Below are positions 27,031 through 37,733 of a stretch of DNA of 64,000 nucleotides, in pieces. Made by a program: the position numbers and the translations under genes. The notes beneath the pieces were generated by a model. The model searched no databases. It was not told where the DNA came from and saw nothing but the letters and a program-made list of their open reading frames with translations. Every line of letters starts with the position of its first letter. Position 1 is the stretch's first letter. The DNA is from Azoarcus sp. CIB (GTDB lineage: Bacteria; Pseudomonadota; Gammaproteobacteria; Burkholderiales; Rhodocyclaceae), in the NCBI RefSeq assembly GCF_001190925.1, contig NZ_CP011072.1, positions 124,001 through 188,000 on the forward strand, read 5' to 3'.

Positions 27031-27132
27031 ATGCCGGTCGGTAATTTCGGTATGAGCGAGGAGTTCCACGAGATGGTTGGCGCTGATTTGGGTCATCCCG
27101 GCACGTGGACACCTTCCCTCACTGCGCCGTGA
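27031..27132 (+). CDS. Possible 33-residue ORF, unrecognised
   Basis: An ATG nine bases after GAGGAG opens a 33-codon frame (MPVGNFGMSEEFHEM...) ending just inside the 3' end of the convergent PIN gene. No family is recognised. Its interest comes only from the hairpin that would sequester its ribosome site. It may be non-coding or a remnant of a longer gene. Confidence 0.2.
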   Translation: MPVGNFGMSEEFHEMVGADLGHPGTWTPSLTAP

Positions 27133-27544
27133 GGTAAATTTCGACGGTGGCAGTCGTCCAGGTCGGCACTCCGGTGCCGAAAAAGTCCCTGTCTTCGGTC
27201 CAGATCGGGCAATTCATCAGCAGTGCGGCAGCGAGGCCGGGCCAGTCGCGTTCGTCACGCTGGCCGATGCGTGCGCGGGCGTCGGCTTCAACCAGCGTCA
27301 ACTCCTCTTTCCCGACAAGCTGGACGGCGCTCATCAGGGTTTCGAGCGACGTTTGCCAGACCTCGTCCGAAATCCCCCGCCGGGGAGCAAGCTGGGCGAC
27401 GTAGTGACGGGCTTCCTCGAAATTGGCTTCGGCCACATAGAAAGCGACCTGCTCGCTGGCGCCGGCGATCAAAGACCGCACCCGTTGCCCGAAAACGGCG
27501 CGAATGAGGATATTCGCGTCGATGACGAGTCGCTTATGTTGCAT
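27119..27544 (-). CDS. PIN-domain toxin (VapC-like ribonuclease)
   Basis: The 141-residue product starts at the ATG at 27544 (MQHKRLVIDANILIRAVFG). The acidic PIN residues are visible: Asp in LVIDANIL, acidic residues in EANFEEARH, and ERDWPGLAAAL plus IWTEDRDFFGTG near the C-terminus, which carry the metal-binding carboxylates. PIN toxins cleave RNA. The start overlaps the end of the upstream Phd-like gene by 11 bases, the usual antitoxin-toxin coupling. The first 35 codons of the longer frame are antitoxin sequence in another frame and were excluded. Confidence 0.86.
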   Translation of the reverse strand: MQHKRLVIDANILIRAVFGQRVRSLIAGASEQVAFYVAEANFEEARHYVAQLAPRRGISDEVWQTSLETLMSAVQLVGKEELTLVEADARARIGQRDERDWPGLAAALLMNCPIWTEDRDFFGTGVPTWTTATVEIYLTAQ

Positions 27545-27794
27545 CTTGCTTATTGCGCCAGGTCTTGAAATCCGCCGCCAGCTCATCTTCGGTGATTCCC
27601 AGACGAGCCATTTCCTCTTGCATGCGCCGCCCCGCTTCGAGGAGTGCATCGCGTTCGGATTGGTTGGGTCGTTTGGGGACGGGAATATAGAACCCGATCG
27701 TCCGACCGTGACGTGTGACCTCGATAGGCATCGACGCCTCGAGATATTCGGCCAGTTTCTCGCGCAACTCCCGCATGCCGATGCGCAGACTCAT
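27534..27794 (-). CDS. Phd/YefM-type antitoxin
   Basis: The 86-residue protein starts at 27794 after a GAGGGAAG site (MSLRIGMRELREKLAEYLEA); a 15-residue longer form is less likely. The N-terminal part fits the Phd/YefM DNA-binding fold (SMPIEVTRHGRTIGFYIPV). The charged C-terminal tail (EDELAADFKTWRNKQDAT) would bind and neutralise the PIN toxin. Such antitoxins normally repress their own operon. Pairing of a Phd-like antitoxin with a PIN toxin is common. Confidence 0.85.
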   Translation of the reverse strand: MSLRIGMRELREKLAEYLEASMPIEVTRHGRTIGFYIPVPKRPNQSERDALLEAGRRMQEEMARLGITEDELAADFKTWRNKQDAT

Positions 27795-27917
27795 GACTTC
27801 CCTCTTGTGTATCAATTGCGTACGCAATTTATAGCACACGTAATCGTTGTCCGCCGAGATCTATCACGACCACCTTGATATGGACTGGGCACCTGCGTCC
27901 AGTGTATTCCCCTGCTG

Positions 27918-28183
27918 TTACGCCTCAAGCGCGCTCAGCACTGCCGTGTGGCTCTTCTCGATCACGTTGAGACCAAGGCCGGGCCTTGCGGCCGCCGGGC
28001 TCCTCGTTCCCAATGCCTCACGGTCGCGACGGAGAACCCGATGCGAGCAGCGAACTGCTCTTGCGTCATATGTTCGCCGCGCAGCAACGCGGGCAGTTTG
28101 GTCTTGGCTTCGTACAGCCGATCTCGAGCTTTATTGCCGGCCTCCTGTGTGACATATAGACCAGATTTCTGACTGGTCTTCAT
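27918..28183 (-). pseudogene. HTH (XRE/NadS-like) antitoxin gene with C-terminal frameshift, no toxin partner
   Basis: The frame from the ATG at 28183 (MKTSQKSGLYVTQEAGNK...) has a helix-turn-helix typical of HigA/NadS antitoxins (MTQEQFAARIGFSVATVRHWERGARRPQGPAL). It then stops at 27962 as VST. In the next frame the expected C-terminus continues as NVIEKSHTAVLSALEA to a stop at 27918-27920, so one base appears missing near 27965-27970. Only the last ~17 residues are lost, so residual DNA binding is possible. No RelE/HigB-like toxin is visible on either side. Confidence 0.7.
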
Positions 28184-28345
28184 GGTGTCGAGTTCGCACG
28201 CGACATTGCCAGCGCTTACCGGCGCAAGGGCTGCGCGATGCGGCGCAGACATCCGTCAGCAGCGGTGCGTGGCGCAGGTGCGGCGGTTTCGCTCGCACGA
28301 ACGCCGCCACAAAGTGGAAAATCTGGGCCCGGTGTAGTCAGCTCG

Positions 28346-28382
28346 GGGTAAAACTGAGGGCATAATGTCCGCAGTTATACCC
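28346..28382. promoter_or_regulatory. Inverted repeat around the promoter of the methyltransferase-HNH gene
   Basis: GGGTAAAACTG (28346-28356) and CAGTTATACCC (28372-28382) form an 11-bp inverted repeat with one mismatch. It brackets CATAAT, a plausible -10 box, and ends 10 bases before the start codon. Such a layout suits autorepression by the helix-turn-helix at the N-terminus of the encoded methyltransferase. That role is inference. Confidence 0.55.
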
Positions 28383-28392
28383 AGAGATACTC

Positions 28393-30468
28393 ATGACTGC
28401 GACTGTACTCACTACCGGCGTCAGCGGGAACGACGCGCTGCGCTACCTCCACGAAGCATTGAAGCACCGCAGCCAAGCGGATATCGCGCGGCATCTCGGC
28501 AAAGATGTCCGCACCGTGCGGCGCTGGGTCGCGGAGCAGACAATTCCGGCGCACTACGGCTATGCGCTGCAGGCGCTGCTGCCGTTCGCGCCCCCGGTCC
28601 GCCACCAGTCTGCGTTCACGTTCATCGATCTGTTCGCCGGCGTTGGCGGGATTCGTTCAGCGTTCGAGGGCATCGGCGGGTGCTGCGTGTTCACCAGCGA
28701 ATGGGACGAATATGCGCAGAAGACCTATGCGGAAAACTATCGCGACGGTCACGTCATCCACGGCGACATCACGAAGATTCCCCCCGAGGATGTGCCGGAT
28801 CATGACGTGCTCCTCGCAGGTTTTCCCTGCCAGCCGTTCTCGATCGCCGGCGTCTCGAAGAAGAATGCCTTGGGCCGTGCCCACGGGTTCGCCTGCGAGA
28901 CGCAGGGCACACTGTTCTTCAATATCTGCACCATCCTTGAAACCAAGCGCCCGCGCGCGTTTCTGCTTGAAAACGTCAAGAACCTGATGTCCCACGACAA
29001 GGGGCGCACCTGGGACGTAATCAAGCGCTCGCTGGATGACCTTGGCTACGACATCTCGCCGAAGGTCGTCGATGGTGCCCATTTCGTTCCGCAGCACCGT
29101 GAACGCATTCTCATCGTCGGATTCCGGAAGGAGGACCGCATCGCATTCGATTGGGACGCCCTGCCGATGCCACCGAAAGGCGTGCACAAGCTCCGCGATG
29201 TCCTGCATCGTAGCGATGGGACCGAGCCCGTACTCGAATGGGACGGCGACAGATTCTTCGATCATGCCGCGTACAAGGTTCAGGATAGATACACCCTGAC
29301 GCCCAAACTGTGGCGATATCTGCAGGACTATGCCGAGAAGCACCGTGCCAAGGGTAATGGCTTCGGTTTCGGTCTGGTGTTTCCGGACAGCGTGACGCGC
29401 ACGCTGTCGGCCCGGTACTACAAGGACGGCTCGGAGATCCTCGTCTATCAGGGCGAAAACATGAACCCCCGGCGGCTCACGCCGCGCGAGTGCGCGCGGC
29501 TGATGGGGTTTCCGGATACGTTCAGGATTCCGGTGTCGGATAGTCAAGCGTACCGCTTGCTATCACATGCCGCGGTCGTACCAATGACGTCGTGGGCGGC
29601 TAAACTCATGGGTTCCAATCTTCCCGTACGAGACGGCGAATCGGCGCAGGTGCCTGTGGCCGTGCCAAAGGACATCATGAGAAATGGTCGTTGGACTGGG
29701 GAGCAACTCAAGCTCGCCTTTCATCTTTATTGCCAACTCCCATTCGGGAAACTGCATTATCGAAATCCCGAGATTGCCGAATTGGCTGAGCTGATTGGGC
29801 GTACGCCATCGGCCGTCGCAATGAAGCTCGTCAATTTCGCGAGCCTCGATCCGGCAATCACGCGCAGCGGGCGCAAGGGCCTTGGCAATGCGTCGAGCGC
29901 AGATCGCGAAATCTGGGACCAATTCCATGCCGATTGGGAGGGGCTCGCGTTGGAGTGCACGCGCCTGCGCGAGGCAATTCGCCTAGATCACGGCAAAGCC
30001 ATCACGACCGTTAGCAGCGATATCGAGCTGGAGGAAATAGCCGATTTCACCGGGGAAACCAGGCGAGTCATTGTCGAGCAGCGTATCAAGCAAGACTTCT
30101 TCCGCAGAGCGGTATTGAGCAGCTATCGGGGAAGATGTTGCATGTCGCATCTTGCGGAGCCGCGATTGTTGATCGCGAGCCACATCGTTCCGTGGAGCCA
30201 GGACAGGGCGAACCGTTTGAACCCGAGTAATGGGTTGTGTCTTTCCGCGATACACGACAAGGCGTTTGATCAAGGGTTGCTCACGCTGTCAGACGACTTC
30301 CGGGTCGTGGTGTCCGATGAACTAAAACGGCGCAATGAGCCGTTCCTTAATCAATTCATCATCCCGCTCGATGGACGGCCAATCGAGTTACCCGAACGCT
30401 TCACTCCGGATCTGGCGTTCGTGCGTCGTCACCAGTCGGATGTTTTTGTCGATAGCCAACGGAGATGA
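28393..30468 (+). CDS. Dcm-type DNA (cytosine-5) methyltransferase fused to HNH endonuclease
   Basis: The 691-residue protein joins two enzymes. Residues 1-70 contain a helix-turn-helix-like segment (QADIARHLGKDVRTVRRW). Residues 75-400 are a C5-methyltransferase close to E. coli Dcm, with motif I FIDLFAGVGG (77), motif IV GFPCQPFS (catalytic Cys146), motif VI ENVK (Glu193), QHRERI and a Dcm-like target-recognition stretch (SVTRTLSARYYKDGSEI). CCWGG-type specificity is therefore plausible but inferred. Motif X, normally with GNSV, reads RLLSHAAVVP at 387-396. From about 427 an HNH nuclease follows (RWTGEQLKLAFHLYCQLPFG), with His597 (ASHIVPW), Asn613 and His621 at normal spacing. An in-frame ATG at 29677 could also yield the nuclease alone. 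Confidence 0.88.
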   Translation: MTATVLTTGVSGNDALRYLHEALKHRSQADIARHLGKDVRTVRRWVAEQTIPAHYGYALQALLPFAPPVRHQSAFTFIDLFAGVGGIRSAFEGIGGCCVFTSEWDEYAQKTYAENYRDGHVIHGDITKIPPEDVPDHDVLLAGFPCQPFSIAGVSKKNALGRAHGFACETQGTLFFNICTILETKRPRAFLLENVKNLMSHDKGRTWDVIKRSLDDLGYDISPKVVDGAHFVPQHRERILIVGFRKEDRIAFDWDALPMPPKGVHKLRDVLHRSDGTEPVLEWDGDRFFDHAAYKVQDRYTLTPKLWRYLQDYAEKHRAKGNGFGFGLVFPDSVTRTLSARYYKDGSEILVYQGENMNPRRLTPRECARLMGFPDTFRIPVSDSQAYRLLSHAAVVPMTSWAAKLMGSNLPVRDGESAQVPVAVPKDIMRNGRWTGEQLKLAFHLYCQLPFGKLHYRNPEIAELAELIGRTPSAVAMKLVNFASLDPAITRSGRKGLGNASSADREIWDQFHADWEGLALECTRLREAIRLDHGKAITTVSSDIELEEIADFTGETRRVIVEQRIKQDFFRRAVLSSYRGRCCMSHLAEPRLLIASHIVPWSQDRANRLNPSNGLCLSAIHDKAFDQGLLTLSDDFRVVVSDELKRRNEPFLNQFIIPLDGRPIELPERFTPDLAFVRRHQSDVFVDSQRR

Positions 30469-30471
30469 GCC

Positions 30472-30846
30472 ATGAATGCATCCGATTTTTCGGTATTCGA
30501 GTATTTGTACCGCGACAGCGGGAACTACAAGTCTTGGGGGGAGCTTCTCCTCAGGGGCTGTCTTACGGATGACGAAATTGAGAAGATGCGCGAAAAATTT
30601 TCTGCCAAGGAATACTTTATTGCCGAGCAGATTGGCGTTCCCTCCGTTGCCGAGCAGTTGTGGGGAGCGGATGGCTCGCCGAACGAATCCGATCACACAT
30701 GGCACGAATTCAGTGCAGTACGTGACGCCACCGATCAAGACGTGAACACCTTGCCCGTGTGGGGGGACGCCAAGACGCTCTTATTGAGGATCTTGAGTGT
30801 CAAGCAATGGGATGAAACTCAGTCATGTAACTGGTCTCGCCATTAG
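30472..30846 (+). CDS. Small protein of unknown function downstream of the methyltransferase-HNH gene
   Basis: The 124-residue acidic protein starts three bases after the fusion gene stop, with GGAGATGAGCC as ribosome site, so it is co-transcribed. No signal peptide or membrane segment is seen. The sequence (SVFEYLYRDSGNYKSWGE, then DDEIEKMREKFSAKEYFIAEQIG) is helical and has a Trp-rich C-terminal half. I do not recognise the family. Its placement suggests an accessory to the restriction-modification unit. Confidence 0.7.
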   Translation: MNASDFSVFEYLYRDSGNYKSWGELLLRGCLTDDEIEKMREKFSAKEYFIAEQIGVPSVAEQLWGADGSPNESDHTWHEFSAVRDATDQDVNTLPVWGDAKTLLLRILSVKQWDETQSCNWSRH

Positions 30847-31132
30847 CATCTGGCGGTCAGGTCGGCACTCTACGTCGCATATGCGATGAACTCTGTTCAG
30901 CGGCACTTTGGAGGGGGCTAGAAATGACAATGCCGTCCCGAGGCGCCCGTCGCCCCATGAGCATCAGGCTCTATGCGGCTTGCGGCGAAAGCCCGCTTGA
31001 TTCGCCGCAAATACTGCGGTGAATAGTTGTCACTGCGCCGAAAAGCACCGACCACGCCTTGAGCGATCTGCTTCTTGCCCGAGAAAGATCCCCGGGCAAG
31101 CGTCTCCATGCGCGCTTACCCGGGTCCATCTA

Positions 31133-32233
31133 TCAGATGCTCGGGCGGTAATTCGCCAGCCAGTGAGCATAGGGGGCCGGCAGCACCCAGGACGGCTTCT
31201 CTTCCTTCAGCTGCAAGGCTGCGTGGTAGCTCCAGTGCGGATTGGCGAGATGTGCGCGGCCGATCATCACGAGATCCATCTGCTGGTCGGCAACGACGCG
31301 GTTGGCCGTGGCCGGCGCGTCGATGCCCCAGGACGAGGCGACGGGCAGTTCGGCCTCGCGGCGGACCCGTTCGGCAATCGGTGCGAGGAAGGCCGGGCCC
31401 CACGGGATCTGCGCGTCGGGTGTGGAAAAGCCGACGCTGACGTTGAGCAGGTCGAGGCCGCTGCGGCGGAAGGCGCGGGTCAGTTCGATGGATTCCGTCA
31501 GCGTCTCTTCGTCCCGGCCATCGTATTCGATGACGCCGAAGCGGACCGTCAGGGGCAGGCGCTCCGGCCACACCTCGCGGACGGCGGCCAGGGTTTCGAG
31601 CAGGAAGCGGCTGCGTCCGGCATAGTCGCCGCCGTACTGATCGGTCCGCTGATTGGCATGGACGGAGAAGAAGCTTTGCGCCAGGTAGCCGTGGGCGAAG
31701 TGTAGTTCGAGCCACTCGAAGCCGGCATCCCGCGCGCGGCGCGCGGCCGCGACGAAATCGTTTCTGACGCGGGCGATGTCGTCCACGGTCATCGCGCGCG
31801 GCACTTTCGGCAGGTGGGCGCCAAATGCCACCGCGGACGGGGCCAGCGGCGTCCACGCCCGGGTGTCGCCATCGGGGATGTGGTCGTCACCTTCCCACGG
31901 GCGATTCGCGCTCGCCTTGCGGCCCGCGTGTCCGATCTGGATGCCGGGAACGGCGCCGCCGGCCTTGATCGCGGCCGCGATGCGGGCGAGGCCCTGCGCC
32001 TGCTCGTCGTTCCAGAGACCGAGGCAGGCCGGGGTGATGCGCCCTTCCGGCGCCACCGCGGTCGCCTCGACGATGACGAGGCCGGCGCCGCCGCGTCCCA
32101 GGCTCGCGTAATGGCCCCAGTGCCAGTCGTTGCTGACGCCGTCCGCGGCGCTGTACTGGCACATGGGCGGGATGGCGATGCGGTTGCGCAGGGTGACGTC
32201 TTTCAGTTTGAAGCTGCTGAACAATGCGGACAA
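31133..32233 (-). CDS. NADH:flavin oxidoreductase, Old Yellow Enzyme family (YqjM-like)
   Basis: The 366-residue FMN enzyme would reduce activated C=C bonds (enones, xenobiotics) with NAD(P)H. A TTG start at 32233 is chosen: GGAGG lies eight bases upstream and homologues begin LSALFSSFKLKD. The longer ATG frame runs into insertion-sequence DNA. Markers include RNRIAIPPMCQYSA, WHWGHYASLGRGGAGL, the His pair in QIGHAGRKAS, the proton-donor Tyr region HFAHGYLAQSF, QYGGDYAGRSRFL, and FMN-phosphate binding at DLVMIGRAHLANP. The YqjM-type subclass is indicated by the Cys in PPMCQYS. Confidence 0.93.
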   Translation of the reverse strand: MSALFSSFKLKDVTLRNRIAIPPMCQYSAADGVSNDWHWGHYASLGRGGAGLVIVEATAVAPEGRITPACLGLWNDEQAQGLARIAAAIKAGGAVPGIQIGHAGRKASANRPWEGDDHIPDGDTRAWTPLAPSAVAFGAHLPKVPRAMTVDDIARVRNDFVAAARRARDAGFEWLELHFAHGYLAQSFFSVHANQRTDQYGGDYAGRSRFLLETLAAVREVWPERLPLTVRFGVIEYDGRDEETLTESIELTRAFRRSGLDLLNVSVGFSTPDAQIPWGPAFLAPIAERVRREAELPVASSWGIDAPATANRVVADQQMDLVMIGRAHLANPHWSYHAALQLKEEKPSWVLPAPYAHWLANYRPSI

Positions 32234-32339
32234 GGTGCTGACCTCCGGAAATGGCGGACCGCATGCACGGCAATGCATGTCGGCGGTGGACTCGGACTGG
32301 ATGGAATCGTAAATCATTGGCCGACGATGGTGGCGGCTG

Positions 32340-32471
32340 CCCCGTTCCACAGTCTGCTCCTTGAACTCGGCGGTGTACTCCTGCTTCGGGATGTGTTTCA
32401 CGTCATTCTTCCCGTCGTTGCGTCGATCGGATGACGACTACGGTGGAAGACGAAATTCGTGGGGCAGGTCA
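32340..32471 (-). mobile_element. Left-end remnant of an IS3-type insertion sequence
   Basis: On the minus strand TGACCTGCCCC (complement of 32461-32471) resembles the terminal repeat of IS3-family elements. About 60 bases further, an ATG at 32401 opens MKHIPKQEYTAEFKEQTVE, the usual N-terminus of an orfA transposase. Similarity ends after about 20 codons, where sequence upstream of the Old Yellow Enzyme gene begins. The rest of the element is missing. The flanking parts of 32234-32576 show no other gene. Confidence 0.65.
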
Positions 32472-32576
32472 CTGTCGACGCACCTCCATGTTCCGCCGAC
32501 TTTGCCGGCATATGCCGTTGATCTCGTTACATCCGGATAGAATTGATCGGATCGATTCCCGCCAAATCATTTGCTC

Positions 32577-35500
32577 ATGGCCGTTCCGCCCGCTGCGCCC
32601 CGTGCGCGGTGCCTGTGCCTCGACATTGAAACCGCCCGCCAGGACCGCTTGGTCCTGCGCGAGCTGGGCATGTTTCGCCCCGATCTCGATGCGCGGCTGA
32701 GGCTCCCGGGCAAGGCGCCGGATCTGGTGCCGCGGCTGGATGCGTTGACCGAAGGGGCCGCCTTCGTCCTCGGCCACAACGTCGTCGCCTTCGACCAGCC
32801 GGCGCTGGCGGCGCTGCATCCCGAGCTCGCGCTGCACCGCCTGCCGCTGATCGACACGCTCGAACTCTCGCCCGTCGCTTTTCCGCAGAACCCGTATCAC
32901 CGGCTGGTGAAGGACTACAAGCTGTGCAGGACGACGCGCAACGATCCGGTGCGCGATGCGGAGCTCGCCTACGCGCTGTTCGTCGACCAGAGCGAAGCCT
33001 TGCAGCAGCGCGTCGCCGACCATCCGGACGAGGCGTTGTGCCTGCATTACCTGCTCGCGCCGGAGAACGGCAAGGGCGTGGCGAACTTCTTCGCGACCTT
33101 GCGTCGCGCGCTGCGGCCATCGCTCGCGGAAACTGCGGCGGCATGGCGGCGCGTGACCGCTGGCAAGGGCTGCATCACCGGGCAGCGCTGGGTGCTCGAT
33201 CACTGCCTGGCCGATCCCGCGTGGCACAAACCGTTGGCGTATGCGCTGGCGTGGCTGCGCGTCGCGGGCGGCAATTCGGTGCTGCCGCCGTGGGTGAGCC
33301 TGAGTTTCCCGAAGACGCGCGAGGTGATTGCGGCCCTGCGCGACGTGCCCTGCCCGGACCTGGCCTGCGCGTGGTGCCGCGACCAGCACGACCTCGACAC
33401 CGTGCTGCCGCGCTACTTCCCCGGCATCACGCGCTTCCGCAGTACGCCGACCACCGCGGACGGCCGCTCGCTGCAGCAGGCGATCGTCGAGAACGGCTTC
33501 GCCGGCCGCCCGACGCTCGCGATTCTGCCGACCGGCGGTGGCAAGTCGCTGTGCTTCCAGCTTCCCGCGCTGGCGCGCTATTACCGCAACGGCAGCCTGA
33601 CGGTGGTGATCTCGCCGCTGCAGTCGCTGATGAAGGACCAGGTCGACAACTTGGAGGCGCGCGGCATCACCTGCGCGGGCTACCTCAACAGCCTGCTCAA
33701 CCCGATGGAACGGCGGGTGATGCTCGACAAGCTGCGCCTGGGTGATCTCGGTCTGATTTTTGTCGCGCCGGAGCAGTTCCGCAGCACCGCCTTCGCCAAT
33801 GCGCTGATGCATCGCGAGATCGGTGCGTGGGTGTTCGACGAGGCGCACTGCCTGTCGAAGTGGGGCCACGACTTCCGGCCGGACTACCTCTACGTGTCGC
33901 GCTTCATCAAAGCACGCCAGAAGGACAAACCCTCGCCAGTGTTCGGCTTCACCGCGACCGCCAAGCCGGATGTGGTCGACGACATCTGCGCGCACTTCGA
34001 GAAGCGCCTCGGCGTCGTGCTCGACCGCCTCGAAGGCGGAGTGAGCCGCGAGAATCTGAGCTACGAGGTCAGGACGGTGCCGGCGCAGGCGAAGTACGCC
34101 GAGACCTTGCGCCTGCTGCAGGACGCCCTGCGCGAGGAGGGCGGTGCGATCGTGTTCTGCGCGCGGCAGAAGACGGTCGAGGAGGTCGCGGAATTCCTGA
34201 AGAATGCCGGCCTCGACTGCGGTTACTTCCACGGCGGCATGCTCCCGGCGAACAAGCGCGCGGTGCAGGAAGCCTTTCTTGCCGGCACGCTACGCGTCAT
34301 CGCTGCGACCAACGCCTTCGGCATGGGCGTCGACAAGCCCGACGTGCGGCTCGTGATCCACCTCGACACGCCCGGTTCGCTGGAGAACTACCTGCAGGAA
34401 GCCGGCCGCGCCGGGCGCGATCAGGCGCCGGCGCGCTGCATCCTGCTCTACGACGACGCCGACCTCGACGTCCAGTTCCGCCTGCTCAGGAACTCGCGCC
34501 TCACGCAGCACGACATCGGCGCCATCCTCAAGGCGCTGCGCGCGATCGAGCGCAAGGACCGCAGCGAGGGCAAGGTCGTCGTCACCAGCGGCGAGATCCT
34601 GCTCGAAATCCCCGACGCGCACCGCATCGATCCCGACGCCAGCGACGCCGACACCAAGGTGCGCATCGCGGTGGCCTGGCTCGAGGAAGCGCGCCTGCTC
34701 GAACGCCACGAAAATCACACGCGCGTCTTCCCCGGCAGCCTGCTCGTCGCGACCGAGGAAGAGGCGCGCGCGCTCCTGCACAGGAAGCTCGGGCCGGACG
34801 CGGACGTCGAGCCCTACGTGCGCATCCTCACCATCCTGATCCAGGCCGAGGACGACGAGGGCCTGTCGACCGACGAGCTGATGCTCGCGACCGGCAAGGA
34901 CTCGCGCACGCTGCAGCACATGCTGCGCGAACTCGACCGCTGGAAGCTGCTGTCGAACGACACCGAGATCGGCGTCACTTTCTATCGCGATCCTGACACC
35001 GCGCAGCGCATCGACGAGCTCGCGCGCATCGAGGACGCCCTGCTGAAGAACCTGCGCGAAGAGGCGCCCGACGCCGACCAGGAAGGCTGGCAGATCCTCA
35101 ATGTGCGCCGCCTATGCGACACCTTGCGGCGCGACGCGCAGGTCGATTTCGACCCGGACAAGCTCACCCGCCTGCTCAAATCGTTCGCCGAACCTTTCGG
35201 GCAAGGCGCGACCCATCGCGGCTTCTTCGCGTTGCGCCCGCAGACCGCGGACAGCCGCTATCTGAAGGTGCTGCGCAACTGGCAGGACATCGAGACGATC
35301 CGCGAACGGCGCATGCGCCTCGCCCGTGCGCTGGTGCAGGAATTCCAGCGCCGCCGCCAGGGCAACACGCTGCTCGTCACCTGCAAGCAGGGCGAGCTCG
35401 AAGCCGCGCTGCAGGCCGACACGACGCTCGCCGACCTCGAAATCGACAAATGGGATGTCGCCCTCTCCGCGGCGCTGCTCTACCTCGACGCCAACGAGGT

Positions 35501-37733
35501 GCTGCATCTCGCGCGCGGCAAGGCGGTGTTCCGCTCCGCGATGAGCATCGAACTCAACGCCGAGGCGCGCCGCCGCCAATTCAAGAAGTCCGACTACGCC
35601 GAACTCGCGCTGCACTACAAGGACAAGATCGTCCAGGTGCACGTGATGGCCGAGTACGCCAAGCTCTCGATCCGCAAGATCCAGGCGGCGATGGCCTTCA
35701 TCGTCGACTACTTCAGCCTCGACCGCGCCGAGTTCGTGCGCCGCTACTTCGCCGGGCGCAAGGACGTGCTCGAGATGGCGACCACCGAGGCCGCGCACCG
35801 CAGAATCCTCACCGACCTCGCCAACCCGGAGCAGCAGGCCATCGTCGCCGCACCCCTCGAAGGCAACCACCTCGTGCTCGCCGGCCCGGGCGCCGGCAAG
35901 ACGCGTGTGATCGTGCATCGCGTCGCCTGGCTGCTGCGCGAATGCATGGTGCTGCCCGAAGCCATCATGGTCCTCGCCTACAACCGCTCCGCCGCCAACG
36001 AAATCCGCCGGCGCCTGTGGGCGCTGGTCGGCGCGGACGCGGCCGGCGTCGCGGTGCAGACGCTGCATGGGCTGGCGATGCGCCTCACCGGCACCAGCTA
36101 CGCCGTCGCGATCGAGCGCGGCGAGGCGGTCGACTTCGGCGAGGTGATCCGCCAGGCCACCCGGCGCCTGCGCGCCGCCGAGCAGGACCCGAGCGTGAAC
36201 GACGGTGTTGGCCCCTCCATCCTGCGCGACCGCCTGCTCTCCGGCCTGCGCTTCCTGCTGGTCGACGAGTACCAGGACATCAACGGCGACCACTACGAGC
36301 TCATCAGCGCGGTGGCCGGCCGCACGCTGCAGACCGAGGAAGACCGCGTCTCGCTGATGGTGGTCGGCGACGACGACCAGAACATCTACGCCTTCGACGG
36401 CGCGAGCGTGCGCTACATCCGCCAGTTCGAAACCGACTACGCCGCGCGCCGCTACGCGCTGATCGAGAACTACCGTTCGACGAAACACATCATCCACTGC
36501 GCCAACCGCGTCATCGAACGCGCGCGCGAGCGCATGAAGGCGGGACAGGCGATCCGCGTGAACCACGCCCGCCGCGACCAGCCCGACGGCGGCGAGCACG
36601 CCGCGCTCGACCCGCTCACCGAAGGCCGCGTGCATGTCCTCGAAGTGCCGCGCAACCCGCATCAGGAAGTGCAGGTCGCACTCGTCGAACTGCAGCGCCT
36701 CCACGACCTGCTGACGCATCGCGCAACCGGCGCGCCCGGCCAATGGGGCCGCTTCGCCGTCATCGCCCGTCGCTGGGAAGACCTCGAACCGATGGCCGCG
36801 CTGTGCCGCCTGCGCGGCATCCCGGTCCGCCTGCAGCGCGACGCCGGCCAGGTCAGCCTGCACCAGACGCGCGAAGGCAACGCCCTCGTCACCCTCTTGC
36901 GCGGCTCACGCAGCAATGCCCGGCGCCGCCGCGTGCTGGTGCGCGTGGGCGTCCTGTCACGCTGGTTCCGCCGCCGCTTCCACGCCCCGCCCGACGGCCT
37001 CATCGACCACCCCTACCGCGCCGCGCTCGCGCAGTTCATTAGCGACGCTGAATCCGCCGCCCCGGGCCGCGAGCTCGTCGTCGACGACCTCATCGAGTCC
37101 CTGTACGACTTCGGCGCCATCGGCAAACCCCCCGCCGATGCCCGCCCCAACGCGCCGCTGGTCCTGATGACCGCCCACCGTGCCAAGGGCCTGGAATTCG
37201 ACCACGTGCTGGTCCTCGACGGCGGCGGCTGGCAGGGGCGCGGCGATGACGAGCGGCGGTTGTTCTATGTCGCGATGACGCGGGCGCGGAAGTCGCTGAC
37301 GCTTTGCGAGGTGGTCGGAGGGCAGCATCCGTTCGCGCGCGATCTGGAGGGGCTGGTGCTGCGTTCGCGACCGAAGGCGCTGCCGCCGCAGCCGGGCGTT
37401 GTGCATCGCATCTGGTGTGCCGATCCGGAGAAGGTCGTGCTGTCGTGGCCGGGGCGCTTCGCGCCGACTGCTCCGATTCACGGTGCGCTGGCGGCGCTCG
37501 ACGTCGGTAGTCCGCTGGCGCTGCGGCAGCGGAGCGGTGGCCGTCCCGGATGGGAAATCACCGATGCGTCGGGCGTCGCGGTTGGCCGGATGTCGTCTAA
37601 GTTCCGGCCGCCGCAGGGCGAAATCGTTGCAGTGCGGGTGGCAGCGGTGCTGGTGCGCCATGCGAGGGAAGACGAGCAGGGCTTGCAATGTGAGTCGTGG
37701 GAGCTGGTGCTGCCGGAGATCGAGTATGGATAG
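32577..37733 (+). CDS. Exonuclease-RecQ-UvrD fusion helicase
   Basis: The 1718-residue protein has three parts. Residues 10-130 form an RNase-H-fold 3'-5' exonuclease-like domain (LDIET with Asp16 and Glu18, GHNVVAFD with Asp73, RDAELAYALF with Asp127). Residues 290-700 are a RecQ-type superfamily 2 helicase (Walker A PTGGGKS near 316, FDEAHCLSKWGHDFRPDY near 419, FGMGVDKPDVR, QEAGRAGRDQ) with a winged-helix-like region after it. Residues 1080-1600 are a superfamily 1 UvrD-type helicase (PGAGKTRVI near 1101, LLVDEYQDING near 1227, GDDDQNIYAFDGA, TAHRAKGLEFDHVLVLDGG, RRLFYVAMTRARKS). The ATG at 32577 is used. All helicase motifs look intact. The role, repair or defence, is not established; defence is suggested by the surroundings. 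Confidence 0.88.
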   Translation: MAVPPAAPRARCLCLDIETARQDRLVLRELGMFRPDLDARLRLPGKAPDLVPRLDALTEGAAFVLGHNVVAFDQPALAALHPELALHRLPLIDTLELSPVAFPQNPYHRLVKDYKLCRTTRNDPVRDAELAYALFVDQSEALQQRVADHPDEALCLHYLLAPENGKGVANFFATLRRALRPSLAETAAAWRRVTAGKGCITGQRWVLDHCLADPAWHKPLAYALAWLRVAGGNSVLPPWVSLSFPKTREVIAALRDVPCPDLACAWCRDQHDLDTVLPRYFPGITRFRSTPTTADGRSLQQAIVENGFAGRPTLAILPTGGGKSLCFQLPALARYYRNGSLTVVISPLQSLMKDQVDNLEARGITCAGYLNSLLNPMERRVMLDKLRLGDLGLIFVAPEQFRSTAFANALMHREIGAWVFDEAHCLSKWGHDFRPDYLYVSRFIKARQKDKPSPVFGFTATAKPDVVDDICAHFEKRLGVVLDRLEGGVSRENLSYEVRTVPAQAKYAETLRLLQDALREEGGAIVFCARQKTVEEVAEFLKNAGLDCGYFHGGMLPANKRAVQEAFLAGTLRVIAATNAFGMGVDKPDVRLVIHLDTPGSLENYLQEAGRAGRDQAPARCILLYDDADLDVQFRLLRNSRLTQHDIGAILKALRAIERKDRSEGKVVVTSGEILLEIPDAHRIDPDASDADTKVRIAVAWLEEARLLERHENHTRVFPGSLLVATEEEARALLHRKLGPDADVEPYVRILTILIQAEDDEGLSTDELMLATGKDSRTLQHMLRELDRWKLLSNDTEIGVTFYRDPDTAQRIDELARIEDALLKNLREEAPDADQEGWQILNVRRLCDTLRRDAQVDFDPDKLTRLLKSFAEPFGQGATHRGFFALRPQTADSRYLKVLRNWQDIETIRERRMRLARALVQEFQRRRQGNTLLVTCKQGELEAALQADTTLADLEIDKWDVALSAALLYLDANEVLHLARGKAVFRSAMSIELNAEARRRQFKKSDYAELALHYKDKIVQVHVMAEYAKLSIRKIQAAMAFIVDYFSLDRAEFVRRYFAGRKDVLEMATTEAAHRRILTDLANPEQQAIVAAPLEGNHLVLAGPGAGKTRVIVHRVAWLLRECMVLPEAIMVLAYNRSAANEIRRRLWALVGADAAGVAVQTLHGLAMRLTGTSYAVAIERGEAVDFGEVIRQATRRLRAAEQDPSVNDGVGPSILRDRLLSGLRFLLVDEYQDINGDHYELISAVAGRTLQTEEDRVSLMVVGDDDQNIYAFDGASVRYIRQFETDYAARRYALIENYRSTKHIIHCANRVIERARERMKAGQAIRVNHARRDQPDGGEHAALDPLTEGRVHVLEVPRNPHQEVQVALVELQRLHDLLTHRATGAPGQWGRFAVIARRWEDLEPMAALCRLRGIPVRLQRDAGQVSLHQTREGNALVTLLRGSRSNARRRRVLVRVGVLSRWFRRRFHAPPDGLIDHPYRAALAQFISDAESAAPGRELVVDDLIESLYDFGAIGKPPADARPNAPLVLMTAHRAKGLEFDHVLVLDGGGWQGRGDDERRLFYVAMTRARKSLTLCEVVGGQHPFARDLEGLVLRSRPKALPPQPGVVHRIWCADPEKVVLSWPGRFAPTAPIHGALAALDVGSPLALRQRSGGRPGWEITDASGVAVGRMSSKFRPPQGEIVAVRVAAVLVRHAREDEQGLQCESWELVLPEIEYG

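Follow-up and report, generated by a model that had tools for sequence, protein, structure and literature searches.

A Dcm-like cytosine methylase with a replaced motif X joined to an HNH nuclease in Azoarcus sp. CIB and other bacteria

The 64 000-nucleotide stretch of Azoarcus sp. CIB DNA analysed here (the window) encodes a protein in which a Dcm-like C5-cytosine methylase and an HNH nuclease are joined in one intact chain (Table 1). The methylase half has selectively lost the canonical motif X, and sequence comparisons indicate that the altered motif and the nuclease form a module that entered EcoRII-type loci repeatedly. The reading that we favour, and to which we give about an even chance, is that of a type IV-like restriction enzyme, dependent on methylation, in which a change at the cofactor site has reprogrammed the Dcm domain to read the mark rather than to write it.

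Table 1. Features of the fusion gene and of its surroundings in the window
Feature	Coordinates	Strand	Description
Putative operator	28346..28382	+	Imperfect palindrome, 37 bp, upstream of the ATG; putative operator of the N-terminal HTH
Fusion gene	28393..30468	+	691 aa: HTH, Dcm-like C5 methylase with replaced motif X, three-helix domain, HNH nuclease
N-terminal HTH-like four-helix region	28426..28572	+	aa 12-60; AlphaFold helices 12-23, 28-35, 39-46, 53-60
C5 methylase body	28609..29553	+	aa 73-387; motifs I, IV (PCQ), VI (ENV), VIII and IX intact
Replaced motif X	29554..29586	+	aa 388-398; canonical motif Q-F-G-N-S-V-V-V
Segment standing where the sister locus L010 differs	29554..32528		In place of L010's canonical motif X, 96-aa gene, Vsr and EcoRII; homology to L010 absent between 29553 and 32529
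Linker	29614..29676	+	aa 408-428; partly low confidence, pLDDT <50 at 414-419
Three-helix domain	29698..29841	+	aa 436-483; start of the nuclease half
HNH_2 nuclease core	30136..30288	+	aa 582-632; PF13391, 3.6e-12
Companion gene A	30472..30846	+	124 aa, directly after the fusion; no Pfam or PADLOC match

The single-chain methylase and nuclease predicted from this DNA proved genuine: the frame holds no internal stop, PF00145 matches residues 75-400 of the protein (6.9e-77) and PF13391 matches its HNH core. The nearest solved structure by sequence is that of a Dcm-like protein from Shigella (PDB entry 3lx6; 4.3e-105). The methylase motifs listed in Table 1 are accompanied by the C5-methylase fold, the fold comparison (VIA-align) covering residues 72-415 and so barely touching the nuclease half, whose core also matches the HNH endonuclease chain 6yex (profile E 8.5e-18). 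The catalytic residues named beforehand (Cys146, Glu193, His597, Asn613 and His621) are in place and invariant in an alignment of ten fusions; His621 is replaced by a tyrosine in both unfused Treponema relatives described below. The nuclease half appears to begin with three helices (residues 436-448, 459-467 and 472-483), for which the ten-residue means of the AlphaFold pLDDT are above 90. Four further predicted helices at the N-terminus agree with the helix-turn-helix (HTH)-like region, of possible control function, that the original prediction had placed there; the region resembles that of regulatory methylases, and Pfam HTH matches to it stay below threshold.

A GTDB genome scan, from which 80 of 125 relatives were kept, gave nine loci in which a single stop-free frame matches the two halves (L002-L009 and L011, the last matching the fusion only from residue 60) and one broken fusion (L059). 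Surveys with the nuclease half added fusions in genomes G286, G279 and G324, the last cut by a contig end; the fusion of G111 is the Dechloromonas denitrificans gene already present as L005. There are thus 13 distinct fusions, the window's and 12 others, and since the match is free of stops in all of these others, a sequencing error or a frameshift at the junction, which had been named as a possible refutation, is ruled out. Separate genes in relatives had been named as another: these do occur at two Treponema loci (L033 and L034), where the nuclease gene lies eleven bases downstream of the methylase gene and motif X is altered as well, and the 12 fusions are uninterrupted. The methylase halves of six fusion pairs show dN/dS values of 0.026-0.115, indicating strong purifying selection, and the constraint equals that on the nuclease half where both can be measured. 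Both halves are of known kinds. Among the papers that our literature searches listed, we found no description of a C5-methylase-HNH fusion, as judged by titles and abstract openings, and as far as these searches show the recurrent joining and the selective replacement of motif X are apparently undescribed.

Motif X of the window's fusion reads RLLSHAAVVP and occupies residues 388-397. The original prediction was therefore right about the alteration and one residue off in placing it at 387-396. In 113 rows of unfused homologues, in which one gene is counted twice (L163 and L238, both from genome G465), 107 columns hold one residue in at least 95% of rows, and five of these columns are lost in at least two of the 13 fusions: Asp138, Gln389, Gly391, Asn392 and Val394. 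All but Asp138, which becomes a glutamate in two fusions, belong to motif X. Nine unfused rows fail to align through the motif; the remaining 104 without exception keep Gly391, Asn392 and Val394, compared with 0/13, 2/13 and 0/13 of the fusions, respectively, and the G-N-(S/A/C)-V signature of Dcm/EcoRII-type methylases is missing from 13/13 fusions (Fisher p 1.6e-17 for the difference from the unfused rows, kinship ignored). The fusions have a motif X pattern of their own, with Ala393 and Ala394 each in 12/13 and Pro397 and Met398 in 13/13; Asn392 gives way to Asp, Gln, His or Glu in 11/13. A frameshifted canonical motif was ruled out by reading the DNA and by the similar altered motifs elsewhere. 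The motif of the unfused Treponema pairs, LFANSSVVPL, keeps the asparagine and the serine and has lost the glycine and the valine, so that the change tracks the nuclease and not the covalent link. The methylase thus changed along with its nuclease, as had been surmised.

The window locus has a sister in an Azoarcus locus (L010), whose methylase is 91.5% identical to that of the window over residues 1-410 and which occupies the same chromosomal site, with the same helicase gene downstream. L010 has a canonical motif X, Vsr (PF03852) and a separate EcoRII (PF09019 and PF09217), whereas the window locus has none of the three. The two loci are 91.7% identical over window positions 28308-29553 and 92.5% identical over 32529-35400; the segment in between holds the canonical motif, a 96-aa gene, Vsr and EcoRII in L010, and the altered motif, the nuclease, gene A and an oxidoreductase gene in the window. 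The 96-aa gene (L010 6278-6568, between methylase and Vsr) has no Pfam match, and genes like it were seen by eye in L012, L013, L016 and L017. The oxidoreductase is of the NADH:flavin type (PF00724; 31133-32401, minus strand), and its place inside the segment suggests that it probably came or stayed through another event. The downstream gene (32571-37733), which the Azoarcus sister locus also has beside its restriction genes, encodes a protein of 1720 aa that combines helicase parts of the RecQ-like and UvrD-like kinds.

Homology to L010 breaks with the final base of codon 387 (Tyr), and this breakpoint recurs. In 12 sister pairs, not all of them independent, the 30 bases up to the end of that codon are 70-97% identical; identity falls to 33-70% in the 30 bases that follow and is 19-36% between +60 and +150. 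Downstream homology returns in 10 of the 17 pairs compared. Gene pieces lying after the HNH gene part in L011, L149, L033 and L034 match the EcoRII of L010, and a piece in L009 matches a similarly placed, unclassified gene of L014 and L015. In a tree of methylase bodies built without motif X (75 unfused, 13 fusions and two pairs; entry at E 1e-60 and at least 60% identity over about 180 residues), fused and unfused Dcm/EcoRII-type bodies interleave, and no fewer than six changes of the fused state are needed to account for the supported branches; a single clade of fusion methylases is rejected (p-AU 3.7e-5). Altered motif X accompanies the nuclease in seven independent contrasts on supported branches, a number that counts contrasts and is not a separate measurement, the second trait having been set equal to the first because the table of motif X columns gave the same split. 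Fused and solitary nucleases interleave too, with at least three changes forced by supported branches; all of these trees are quick ones and that of the nuclease has long branches. The interleaving of the methylase bodies, together with homology that ends at motif X, argues that motif X and nuclease were exchanged together. The idea of an older gene pair joined by mutation, put forward originally, is thus too simple: a gene pair does exist in Treponema, and the module appears to have been passed into EcoRII-type loci more than once. A neighbour gene of one kind, probably thiC, flanks EcoRII-type systems, fusions and solitary nucleases at eight loci (L003, L006, L013, L016, L142, L143, L145 and L150) and marks a common exchange site of the three. 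One planctomycete locus (L062 5960-7342) carries a Dcm-like methylase with a canonical motif X, then a nuclease, in which a weak sub-threshold EcoRII-N-like domain is joined to HNH_2, and then a Vsr-like gene.

The nuclease half also occurs by itself. At E 1e-20 it matches in 50/399 genomes of the order and in 35/398 of the phylum. PF00145 was searched at 1e-10 in 47 of the 49 genomes whose nuclease match is at least as good as 1e-50, with G000 and G382 (a partial one) omitted, and 24 of the 47 gave no match, all of them among the 43 that have an unfused nuclease; the other 19 of these 43 hold some C5 methylase. Among unfused-nuclease genomes with completeness of 90% or more and contamination of 5% or less, 21/35 are without a PF00145 match. 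Stops interrupt the nuclease match in 8/43 genomes, six of them among the 24, and the nuclease is therefore uninterrupted in 18 genomes without any PF00145 match. Solitary copies are constrained as well (dN/dS 0.08-0.13 in six pairs with unsaturated synonymous changes), and most of the solitary-nuclease relatives that were read have no adjoining Dcm-like gene. Directly before the nuclease, four genomes retain methylase relics, with a stop-free nuclease match in three of them: the relic in G243 reads FSQAAVVPL, namely an altered motif X, that in G251 is an N-terminal part only, and in G191 and G311 the PF00145 match is gone from the genome, the G311 nuclease itself having a stop. A fifth candidate (L108) was dropped as another methylase, with 30% identity and lying more than 900 bases upstream. 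The relics indicate that the nuclease can outlive its methylase and that these relatives are former fusions that lost the methylase yet kept the nuclease.

The function of this family can be approached through R.PcaRCII of Pectobacterium carotovorum, described as a solitary HNH enzyme with no methylase nearby, which restricts plasmids and phage methylated at CCNGG, depends on 5-methylcytosine by experiment and has a three-helix, hTRF1-like N-terminus (PMC8989522). The promoter of its gene, pcaIIR, has a CCTGG overlapping the extended -10 (PMC8989522). In one genus of our surveys, 19/25 genomes carry a nuclease gene of the family, full-length and stop-free in 17, and the 12 loci read there encode proteins 44-47% identical to the window's HNH half. 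All 12 have a single CCTGG at -57 that runs into an extended -10-like TGGCATAGT (TGG-CATAGT). One genome of this genus (G610) encodes an L-asparaginase identical over 327 residues to PDB entry 1zcf, an Erwinia carotovora enzyme (PMC2956972), and on this ground we identified the genus as Pectobacterium. We took the 12 loci to be pcaIIR orthologues from the genus and this promoter hallmark, not from the published protein sequence. On that identification, the window's nuclease half is homologous to the PcaRCII family, and its predicted three-helix and HNH build agrees with PcaRCII as described. PcaRCII is solitary, whereas the window's nuclease, known here from sequence, is fused to a Dcm-type domain.

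A second PF00145 match was not found in the window's genome. Vsr, which repairs deaminated 5-methylcytosine in CCWGG-type sites, is absent from the five fusion genomes searched (G324 being only 87% complete) and present in 36/41 genomes with unfused Dcm-like genes (p 1.8e-4) and in 3/17 with an unfused nuclease; in the locus stretches it was seen at 1/12 fusion loci, as a fragment in L011, versus 40/63 unfused loci. This absence may simply reflect that the exchanged segment contained Vsr. In the order and phylum surveys, a Dcm-like gene (1e-70) and a strong unfused nuclease coexist only in G465, an avoidance that is statistically weak (rough P 0.017, from hand-set counts). The nuclease gene of G465 contains stop codons. 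A partial exception in the Pectobacterium set is G774, where a full-length nuclease coexists with a Dcm-like gene of greater distance (57%, over part of the length); in G239 and G420, which possess a Dcm-like gene, only the HNH core is matched, and weakly.

The upstream region offers a candidate operator. Within the palindrome before the start codon, the core GGGCATAATGTCC (28358-28370) overlaps a CATAAT box; this core occurs once in the window, with 0.00 expected from shuffles. It recurs (GGRCATAATGTCC) ahead of some relatives, fused and unfused, an exact match being absent from 244/260 loci. The regulatory site of M.SsoII is AGGACAAATTGTCCT (PMC6100179), and the combination of a GGRCA-N3-TGTCC-like palindrome with an N-terminal regulatory domain recalls M.SsoII and M.EcoRII; unlike the fusion, these regulatory methylases methylate DNA and have no nuclease domain. 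A catalytically inactive EcoRII methylase is described as still repressing if Dcm has methylated the sites (EcoSal review). From the resemblance to the M.SsoII operator, the HTH probably controls its own promoter, which is ordinary for the methylase family. Gene A has homologues at 11/12 fusion loci (G324, cut by the contig end, excluded), 3/21 solitary-HNH loci, 0/63 unfused methylase loci and 0/2 Treponema pairs. Homologues of another small gene (L005 7433-7807) occur at 5/12 fusion, 6/21 solitary-HNH and 1/63 unfused loci. The minus strand at 27119-27839 and 27962-28252 carries a PIN_2 domain gene with a small upstream partner, toxin-antitoxin-like in arrangement, and a separate HTH_3 gene just upstream of the fusion.

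We may wonder how such a protein works. In the proposed mechanism, the nuclease half, with its three-helix domain and HNH core, would cut DNA that has 5-methylcytosine within sites of the CCWGG/CCNGG type; such sites would still be recognized by the Dcm-type half, which would help to dock the nuclease on them and, with motif X replaced, would no longer methylate the host efficiently, while the N-terminal HTH would repress the fusion's own promoter. A CCWGG target is suggested by residues 301-350, which are identical to those of the EcoRII-linked methylase of L010. A nuclease directed against methylated CCWGG and an active CCWGG methylase joined to each other would harm the host, a conflict that the replacement of motif X would resolve. 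This reader model is favoured by the homology of the nuclease to a methylation-dependent family and its survival in genomes without C5 methylases, former fusions among them, by the selective loss of motif X and the coupling of the altered motif to the nuclease, by the fusion's being the only PF00145 protein of its genome and by the absence of Vsr from fusion genomes. Several observations speak against it. The other methylase motifs, the catalytic cysteine included, are conserved, and both this and the purifying selection fit an active enzyme at least equally well. An M.HhaI variant with alanine at the motif X asparagine, combined with Q82A, is described as losing methylation only modestly (PMC10666283), so that a change in motif X need not disarm a methylase. 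To these are added the Vsr-like fragment of L011, the C5 methylases in 19/43 genomes, the HNH half being only about 45% identical to the Pectobacterium proteins, and the weak avoidance statistics together with the cases of G774, G239 and G420. The conserved motifs, the low dN/dS and the M.HhaI variant hold the reader model at the even chance given above.

One of the two readings in the original prediction was a single-chain restriction-modification enzyme, here taken as self-protecting. Its Dcm half would methylate host DNA and its HNH half would cut the site where methylation is lacking, motif X having been retuned to keep the two in balance. This reading now has less support, and we regard it as unlikely. 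It fits two intact halves under purifying selection, a fusion that is the sole PF00145 match of its genome and that sits, like the others, in a former EcoRII-type restriction-modification locus, and the match of the HNH half to a PADLOC model of a type II HNH enzyme (PDLC03546). It fits poorly with HNH relatives that live without PF00145 in 24/43 genomes and are stop-free in 18, with the relic-bearing genomes, and with the methylation dependence described for the tested relative (PMC8989522); moreover, as fused and solitary nucleases interleave, the inverted specificity would have to arise repeatedly. Because relatives lost the methylase and kept the nuclease, this enzyme is less likely than the reader model. 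To our knowledge, known single-chain type IIC/IIG restriction-modification enzymes use adenine methylases. They resemble the fusion in having methylase and nuclease in one chain, whereas the fusion combines a C5 methylase with an altered cofactor motif and a nuclease of a seemingly methylation-dependent family. Another reading lets the nuclease act alone, dependent on methylation, with the methylase as a recombination passenger at EcoRII-type loci and motif X travelling with the module. The recurrent breakpoints just before motif X, the frequency of unfused nucleases and the relics, which show that the methylase half can be lost, would all follow. Yet the methylase half is constrained as much as the nuclease half where measured, the altered motif is conserved in a manner of its own, Pro397 and Met398 being present in every fusion, and in Treponema, where the nuclease gene is separate, the motif was apparently altered in situ, with 60-73% identity over it, and we hold a mere passenger to be quite improbable.

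Two further readings give the altered motif a chemical role. The methylase half might still react at C5 with another donor or to another product, the motif X asparagine being the gating group, and leave a mark that the attached nuclease ignores. The replacement of Asn392 in 11/13 fusions with the other motifs intact is in keeping with this, as are reports that changes at the motif X asparagine alter donor use in M.HhaI and that the engineered M.MpeI N374K and an active-site arginine of the phage CmoX permit carboxymethyl transfer (PMC10666283; PMC12783734); we read N374 of M.MpeI as the motif X asparagine. No fusion, on the other hand, has Lys or Arg at the Asn392 position, two keep the asparagine and no donor-making gene was seen beside the fusion within the locus, which makes this reading highly unlikely. 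Alternatively, the replaced motif would give the Dcm half a new chemistry, in which it flips and attacks cytosine, uses another donor or reads 5-methylcytosine covalently and thereby licenses the nuclease. This is a very improbable reading; were it true, a restriction enzyme would owe its methylation sensor, or its writer of a non-methyl mark, to an active site made for modifying DNA.

A methylase makes the mark that a methylation-dependent nuclease destroys, so that the two are opponents, yet here they have been joined repeatedly, and in every known fusion the cofactor motif is replaced and the rest of the methylase kept. A general question, namely what motif X contributes to C5 methylases besides AdoMet binding, thereby becomes testable. 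If the reader model holds, the fusions would represent a natural route from a modification enzyme to a modification detector and a ready-made reader of 5-methylcytosine in CCWGG for biotechnology, and the exchange of a module would turn a restriction-modification locus into its opposite.
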